From: Chromatiales bacterium
GTDB taxonomy: Bacteria > Pseudomonadota > Gammaproteobacteria > JAGRGH01
Direction of reading: 5' to 3'
DNA length: 64,000 nt
Assembly: GCA_020445605.1 (NCBI GenBank)
Contig: JAGRGH010000051.1
Location: 62,001-126,000 of the forward strand
The translations under genes were made by a program, and so were the position numbers. Shown here piece after piece: positions 55,079-55,200 of this stretch; within the stretch, counting starts at the first letter, position 1; each line of letters starts with the position of its first letter. A model generated the notes under the pieces. That model was not told the origin of the DNA, did no database searches, and worked only from the letters and a program-made list of their open reading frames with translations.

Positions 55079-55107
55079 TTGACAGTCAGTTCACTATATT
55101 AGAAAAT
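55079..55107 (+). promoter_or_regulatory. Promoter of the candidate small RNA
   Basis: A perfect -35 TTGACA (55079-55084), a 17-base spacer and GAAAAT (55102-55107), four of six to consensus. The spacer is AT-rich. Predicted start is near 55113. On the other strand TATAGT at 55098-55093 could be the -10 for tgt, so the two units may share this region divergently. Confidence 0.6.
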
Positions 55108-55112
55108 ACTCA

Positions 55113-55200
55113 TGGACATCGGGCCTCCCCCGATGTCGCACACTCCTCCATCCTCCTTTGGTGGTTTGGGCGCGGCGCCCCTTCGCCGCGCCCTTTTTTT
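55113..55200 (+). ncRNA. Candidate small RNA with CCTCC loop, between tgt and queA
   Basis: About 88 bases, transcribed opposite to queA and tgt. Three parts: (1) a 5' hairpin, GACATCGGG/CCCGATGTC (55115-55123 and 55129-55137), nine perfect pairs closing a CCTCC loop; (2) an unpaired C/T-rich linker with CTCCTCC (55143-55149) and TCCTCC (55151-55156), then TTTGGTGG; (3) a terminator hairpin with seven T. No start codon opens a meaningful frame inside it. Loop and linker are complementary to GGAGG-type ribosome-binding sites, so a trans-acting translation regulator is the natural hypothesis. Known C-rich-loop RNAs such as Xanthomonas sX13 and the CUCCUCC RNAs of Rhodobacter act this way; homology is not claimed. 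Confidence 0.6.
55168..55200 (+). terminator. Rho-independent terminator of the candidate small RNA
   Basis: GGGCGCGGCG and CGCCGCGCCC pair perfectly over 10 bases around a 6-base loop (CCCCTT), followed by TTTTTTT. It works only on the plus strand, where no protein gene lies upstream, so it must end an RNA starting in this gap. Confidence 0.9.

Follow-up and report, generated by a model that had tools for sequence, protein, structure and literature searches.

What is encoded in the gap between tgt and queA, where a promoter and a terminator lie close together on the strand opposite both genes? The window, by which we mean the whole stretch of 64,000 nucleotides that was analysed, has in this gap a compact unit at 55079-55200 on the plus strand. 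Its promoter is 21 nt from the start codon of tgt, and no protein gene is found downstream of it on the plus strand of the window, queA being on the other strand. We propose that the unit is, very probably, a complete gene in its own right, whose product would be a small RNA (sRNA) of about 88 nt that acts in trans by base-pairing and blocks Shine-Dalgarno (SD) sequences, probably together with Hfq. The features of the locus are the following, where counts of conservation refer to a set of 107 distinct members.

53931-55058, minus strand: tgt, neighbour of the sRNA gene.
55079-55107, plus strand: sigma-70-type promoter, with TTGACA at 55079-55084, a 17-nt spacer containing ATATTA, and the -10 GAAAAT at 55102-55107.
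55113-55200, plus strand: predicted sRNA of about 88 nt, with its start placed from the -10 and its end from the T run, and with fold and relatives as further evidence.
55115-55123/55129-55137, plus strand: 5' hairpin of 9 bp, with the loop CCTCC at 55124-55128, from the fold and from hairpins in the same place in relatives.
55143-55149, plus strand: first anti-SD-like site, CTCCTCC, kept in 76 of 107 members.
55145-55164, plus strand: small conserved hairpin CCuCCA[UCCUCCUU]UGGuGG, from the fold and relatives, with GGTGG in 96 of 107 members.
55151-55156, plus strand: TCCTCC, the second anti-SD-like site, which the small hairpin holds in its loop and which 95 of the 107 members retain.
55168-55200, plus strand: intrinsic terminator, with a 10-bp all-GC stem at 55168-55193, the C-rich loop CCCCTT, and T7 at 55194-55200.
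55372-56430, minus strand: queA, neighbour of the sRNA gene.
56443-56526, plus strand: tRNA-Leu (CAA), just past queA and the next plus-strand feature after the sRNA gene.

The original prediction had described a TTGACA with a 17-base spacer and a -10, followed by a 9-bp 5' hairpin with a CCTCC loop, the motifs CTCCTCC and TCCTCC, and a 10-bp GC terminator with T7. All of these elements are found where it had placed them, and the promoter agrees with the consensus in 10 of 12 positions, the first base of the -10 being weak. When the 88-nt RNA is folded, its energy is -44.6 kcal/mol, compared with a mean of -26.2 kcal/mol for shuffled sequences (z = -6.8), and none of 200 shuffles is as good. 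The two CU motifs, which are separated by a single A (CTCCTCC-A-TCCTCC), had also been described as lying exposed in a linker. Both motifs are present, but the linker is not fully open: a weak hairpin at 55145-55164, which had escaped mention, pairs part of CTCCTCC and holds TCCTCC in its loop.

Of 55 other genomes of the class, 10 have a match in a nucleotide search, and almost every match covers the part that extends from CTCCTCC to the terminator; a covariance model of this core (R1) was built from 11 sequences. The class searched appears, from the families found and the named relatives, to be Gammaproteobacteria in the GTDB sense, with the betaproteobacteria included, and the window's genome is the sole representative of its order among the genomes searched. 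In that genome R1 finds a single strong copy (73.9 bits). Among the 369 genomes of the class there are matches in 161 at E<=0.01 and in about 123 at E<=1e-5, where the E-values are rough because the calibration was shortened. As judged by the model, close relatives, so far unlabelled, are present in roughly a third or more of the sampled Gammaproteobacteria. Among the named genomes, the match is strong in two Thioalkalivibrio MAGs and one Chromatiaceae MAG and weaker in Competibacteraceae and Burkholderiales MAGs, and the R1 search gave no match in Wenzhouxiangella XN79A, the Nevskia MAGs or the Lysobacteraceae MAGs. An exact 22-mer had no match in viral contigs, and plasmids gave no match either.

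Tandem sRNA units with two or three copies are seen at the loci L173 (1201-1479), L164 (1129-1336), L194 (1201-1390), L132/L144, L138/L142, L139 and L204 (1196-1558). Locus L012 in genome G018 has a second, divergent copy (about 1501-1530, minus strand), where CCTCCCTCACCCCCCCTGGGTGAA replaces the usual core; it is possibly a sibling with altered specificity.

The computed gene structure is conserved among these relatives. Promoter, 5' hairpin, core and terminator are kept as a unit in more than 100 genomes and at varied loci, which supports the stand-alone sRNA with anti-SD-like motifs that had been proposed. Of the 107 members, 50 carry a 22-nt block, CTCCTCCATCCTCCTTTGGTGG, without any change. 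The terminator is at the same position in relatives; its sequence is variable, and its stem and T run are strong everywhere. Between promoter and core, nearly all members with a recognisable promoter have a hairpin, and in the 61 loci where this 5' hairpin can be delimited its folding has a mean z of -3.7, with 58 below -1. The 5' stems vary in sequence between members and yet still pair: 74% of the stem pairs are kept among members in the same register, and shifting the partner by 1-3 bases lowers this to 33-43%; this comparison, which picks members that share a register and ignores their kinship, gives support and is not a formal covariation test. Most of the kept pairs carry changes on one or both sides, and in the sense available here the stems are upheld by compensatory change, as anticipated. 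The expectation that the apical loop CCTCC would be invariant was wrong, though C-rich 5' loops recur (40% C versus 26% for the region). Of the three CCTCC-type sites in the original prediction, the two in the linker are conserved and the one in the 5' loop is not invariant.

Upstream of the core, a TTGAC-like -35 followed after 16-18 nt by xAxxxT is found in 73 of the 107 members, compared with about 7 in shuffled upstream sequences. The spacer is 17 nt in 61 of these 73, and the promoters often take the form TTGACA-17-(ATATTAGAAAAT). An ATATTAG element, which in the window (55095-55107) overlaps the end of the spacer and the -10, recurs in the upstream regions of members. Since TATTAG, seen in 40 of the 107 upstream regions, is present also where the register of the -35 shifts, this recurrent element may be more than a part of the -10. 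Over or near the -35 of L132, L138, L139, L185, L197 and L201, which are Competibacteraceae-type members and members of the type of the Rfam family RF02278, there is a palindrome-like TGC(N)xGCAACA, possibly a transcription-factor site.

In 62 of 98 loci the sRNA gene precedes rplM-rpsI on the same strand, at a median distance of 178 nt, while in 5 others (the window, L113, L123, L145 and L153) it adjoins tgt and/or queA and is read from the strand opposite to them, and in the remaining 31 neither placement applies. No such RNA was seen in the gap before tgt at those named-genome tgt loci for which the upstream region was read, and the four loci that share the window's placement all came from the RNA model. 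In many loci of the rplM type there is a tRNA-Gln (CTG) about 1.1 kb downstream of the sRNA. From the distribution over the 98 loci follows that it is the unit, and not its neighbourhood, that is conserved. The computation thus has the gene moving as a unit with its own promoter and terminator, and this speaks against a role as antisense RNA or as leader.

To see what each of these roles would imply, consider an RNA that is antisense in cis to the tgt leader: its pairing with a read-through transcript of queA-tgt would be perfect and would give it control of tgt. The location of the sRNA opposite both genes, with its promoter so near the tgt start codon, is what such a role would lead to, and so is the placement beside tgt/queA in four other loci. 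The relatives ahead of rplM and those elsewhere share the core, however, often together with the promoter and with a 5' hairpin, and since an antisense role would not keep the RNA in places away from its target, we regard this explanation as very improbable. The many relatives upstream of rplM on the same strand would rather suit a 5' leader or attenuator that serves a downstream gene (rplM-rpsI, for instance) and has become displaced in the window. But in the window the plus strand offers such a leader no protein gene to precede, its next feature being the tRNA-Leu at 56443, and members at other places retain the whole unit with its strong terminator and T run, so that a leader, too, is quite improbable.

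There remain two readings in which the RNA as such has no role. A 96-codon open reading frame begins with an ATG at 55112 (MDIGPPPMSHTPPSS...), and if this were a leaderless gene for a small protein, the RNA features would be incidental. Relatives differ, however, by single bases in the spacing within the core, with 16 to 25 nt in front of GGTGG, which speaks against a coding sequence, and the 5' part has no common sequence, conservation being found in the RNA core and the stems; a small protein is therefore extremely improbable. Finally, promoter-like and terminator-like sequences may come together by chance, and the 2 such promoters in 4.5 kb are in fact close to the 0.8 that shuffles lead one to expect. 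Chance is refuted by conservation, in that homologous units occur in more than 100 genomes, and we assign it virtually no probability.

How, then, would a trans-acting sRNA of this kind work? C-rich-loop sRNAs, such as Xanthomonas sX13 and staphylococcal RsaE, use unpaired, C-rich sites to pair with the G-rich regions where ribosomes bind. In the proposed mechanism, transcription from the sRNA's own sigma-70 promoter would give an RNA of about 88 nt and stop at its own terminator. The short conserved hairpin would present the CUCCUCC and UCCUCC sites, which would pair with the G-rich Shine-Dalgarno regions of chosen mRNAs and thereby block the binding of ribosomes. Hfq would probably assist the pairing, and the 5' hairpin would guard the 5' end of the RNA and add a further C-rich loop. 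We infer such a trans-acting block of translation initiation because tests in the known relatives point to it and because Hfq is encoded in the window's genome (G000:C49:89395-89580, 103 bits). By the same analogy, the RNA would pair at ribosome-binding sites, depend on Hfq and repress metabolic and transport genes.

When a 16-nt complement was sought in the whole genome with at most 3 mismatches, 6 sites including the gene itself were found, compared with 8 for the reversed pattern. Two of the 5 other sites are on ribosome-binding sites, namely those of an ArsR-type regulator and a GalE-like epimerase, both named by reading their translations. At 414 heuristically called starts, taken from 464 kb of stretches plus the window, duplex energies gave strong pairing no more often for the core than for its reversed or shuffled versions. 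As neither scan is enriched over its controls, no target is claimed. A GGAG, GAGG or AGGA motif is in the expected place at only 28% of the 414 starts, so that an anti-SD RNA could leave most genes untouched.

At the gathering thresholds of Rfam, no sRNA family was found in the window or in 20 relatives. A permissive scan has among its best matches on the same strand, all of them below threshold, RF02278 (33.6 bits, E = 4e-5, short of the gathering score of 50) and, further down, NmsRb (RF02877; 26.4 bits, short of the gathering score of 52), and neither sX13 nor RsaE is among the matches of the region. By the curated cut-offs the window RNA is thus a member of neither RF02278 nor RF02877. The original prediction had seen no named family, and this is to be modified in that RF02278 and NmsR are named and related, with the window RNA staying below their Rfam cut-offs.

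In the papers and the RNA library (Rfam) that were checked, the family is known solely from betaproteobacteria and Neisseria, and no literature on a gammaproteobacterial member was found in the open-access papers to which the search extended, most subscription journals lying outside it. Apparently, therefore, the relatives form an undescribed and very widespread gammaproteobacterial branch of anti-SD sRNAs, of which the sequence-derived hallmarks are the 5' hairpin, the promoter element that recurs and the preference for a site ahead of rplM-rpsI. Work on anti-SD sRNAs has so far dealt with Burkholderia, Bordetella and Neisseria, where they were studied as regulators of metabolism and transport. 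Here, 161 of 369 genomes have a related RNA, often with the same promoter element and core; the RF02278 model matches 138 of the 369 at E<=0.01, and only 2 reach its cut-off. Such breadth would place the sRNA among the more broadly kept regulatory RNAs of Proteobacteria and would allow comparative target prediction over many genomes and tests in hosts that are easy to work with. The usual place ahead of rplM-rpsI, taken together with the anti-SD core, suggests the further and rather unlikely reading that the sRNA, as yet unannotated, is among the most widespread trans-acting sRNAs of Gammaproteobacteria and ties the transcription of ribosomal protein genes to the selective silencing of mRNAs with strong SD sequences.

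One of the two closest known families is RF02278, Betaproteobacteria toxic small RNA, which includes the "double-hairpin RNAs" NcS03/05/27/62 of Burkholderia, bdhR1, and S17 of Bordetella. The window RNA aligns to model positions 1-64 of 64, and its 3' two thirds have in common with the family CUCCUCC, a hairpin with a CU-rich loop and a GC terminator, in the same order. It differs by a further hairpin at the 5' end and by a first loop that is shorter, by its location beside tgt/queA, where most relatives found here are upstream of rplM, and by its copy number, which is one in the window's genome versus three to five in Burkholderia (PMC5688073). The Burkholderia double-hairpin RNAs have been confirmed by Northern blot (PMC4603805), and for NcS27 and its homologues the predicted interactions are on ribosome-binding sites and overexpression slows growth (PMC5688073). 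Growth inhibition upon overexpression in E. coli is reported for the family (PMC4603805, PMC5688073) and largely unseen for Bordetella S17 (PMC11722255). S17 is Hfq-bound and processed to a 67-nt form, and it represses BP2158, a sigma-54 regulator, and probably many transporter genes (PMC11722255).

The other closest known family is that of Neisseria NmsRA/NmsRB, or NgncR_162/163 (RF02877 for NmsRb), to which the window RNA aligns at model positions 1-91 of 91. Both have the same order of 5' hairpin, CU-rich stretch, small hairpin and GC terminator, and in NmsR the stretch is a single-stranded CUCCUC and the small hairpin has a CUCCUUU loop. The targets of NmsRA/B are genes of the TCA and methylcitrate cycles, and the effect of NmsRA on growth in E. 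coli is lost when the anti-SD sites are mutated (PMC5362039); in the gonococcus these RNAs are NgncR_162/163 (PMC9973317). In Neisseria, NmsR is present as two tandem siblings (PMC5362039), while the window's genome has a single copy and some other relatives are tandem. Judged by architecture and by weak but significant computed scores, the window RNA is kin to both RF02278 and NmsR.
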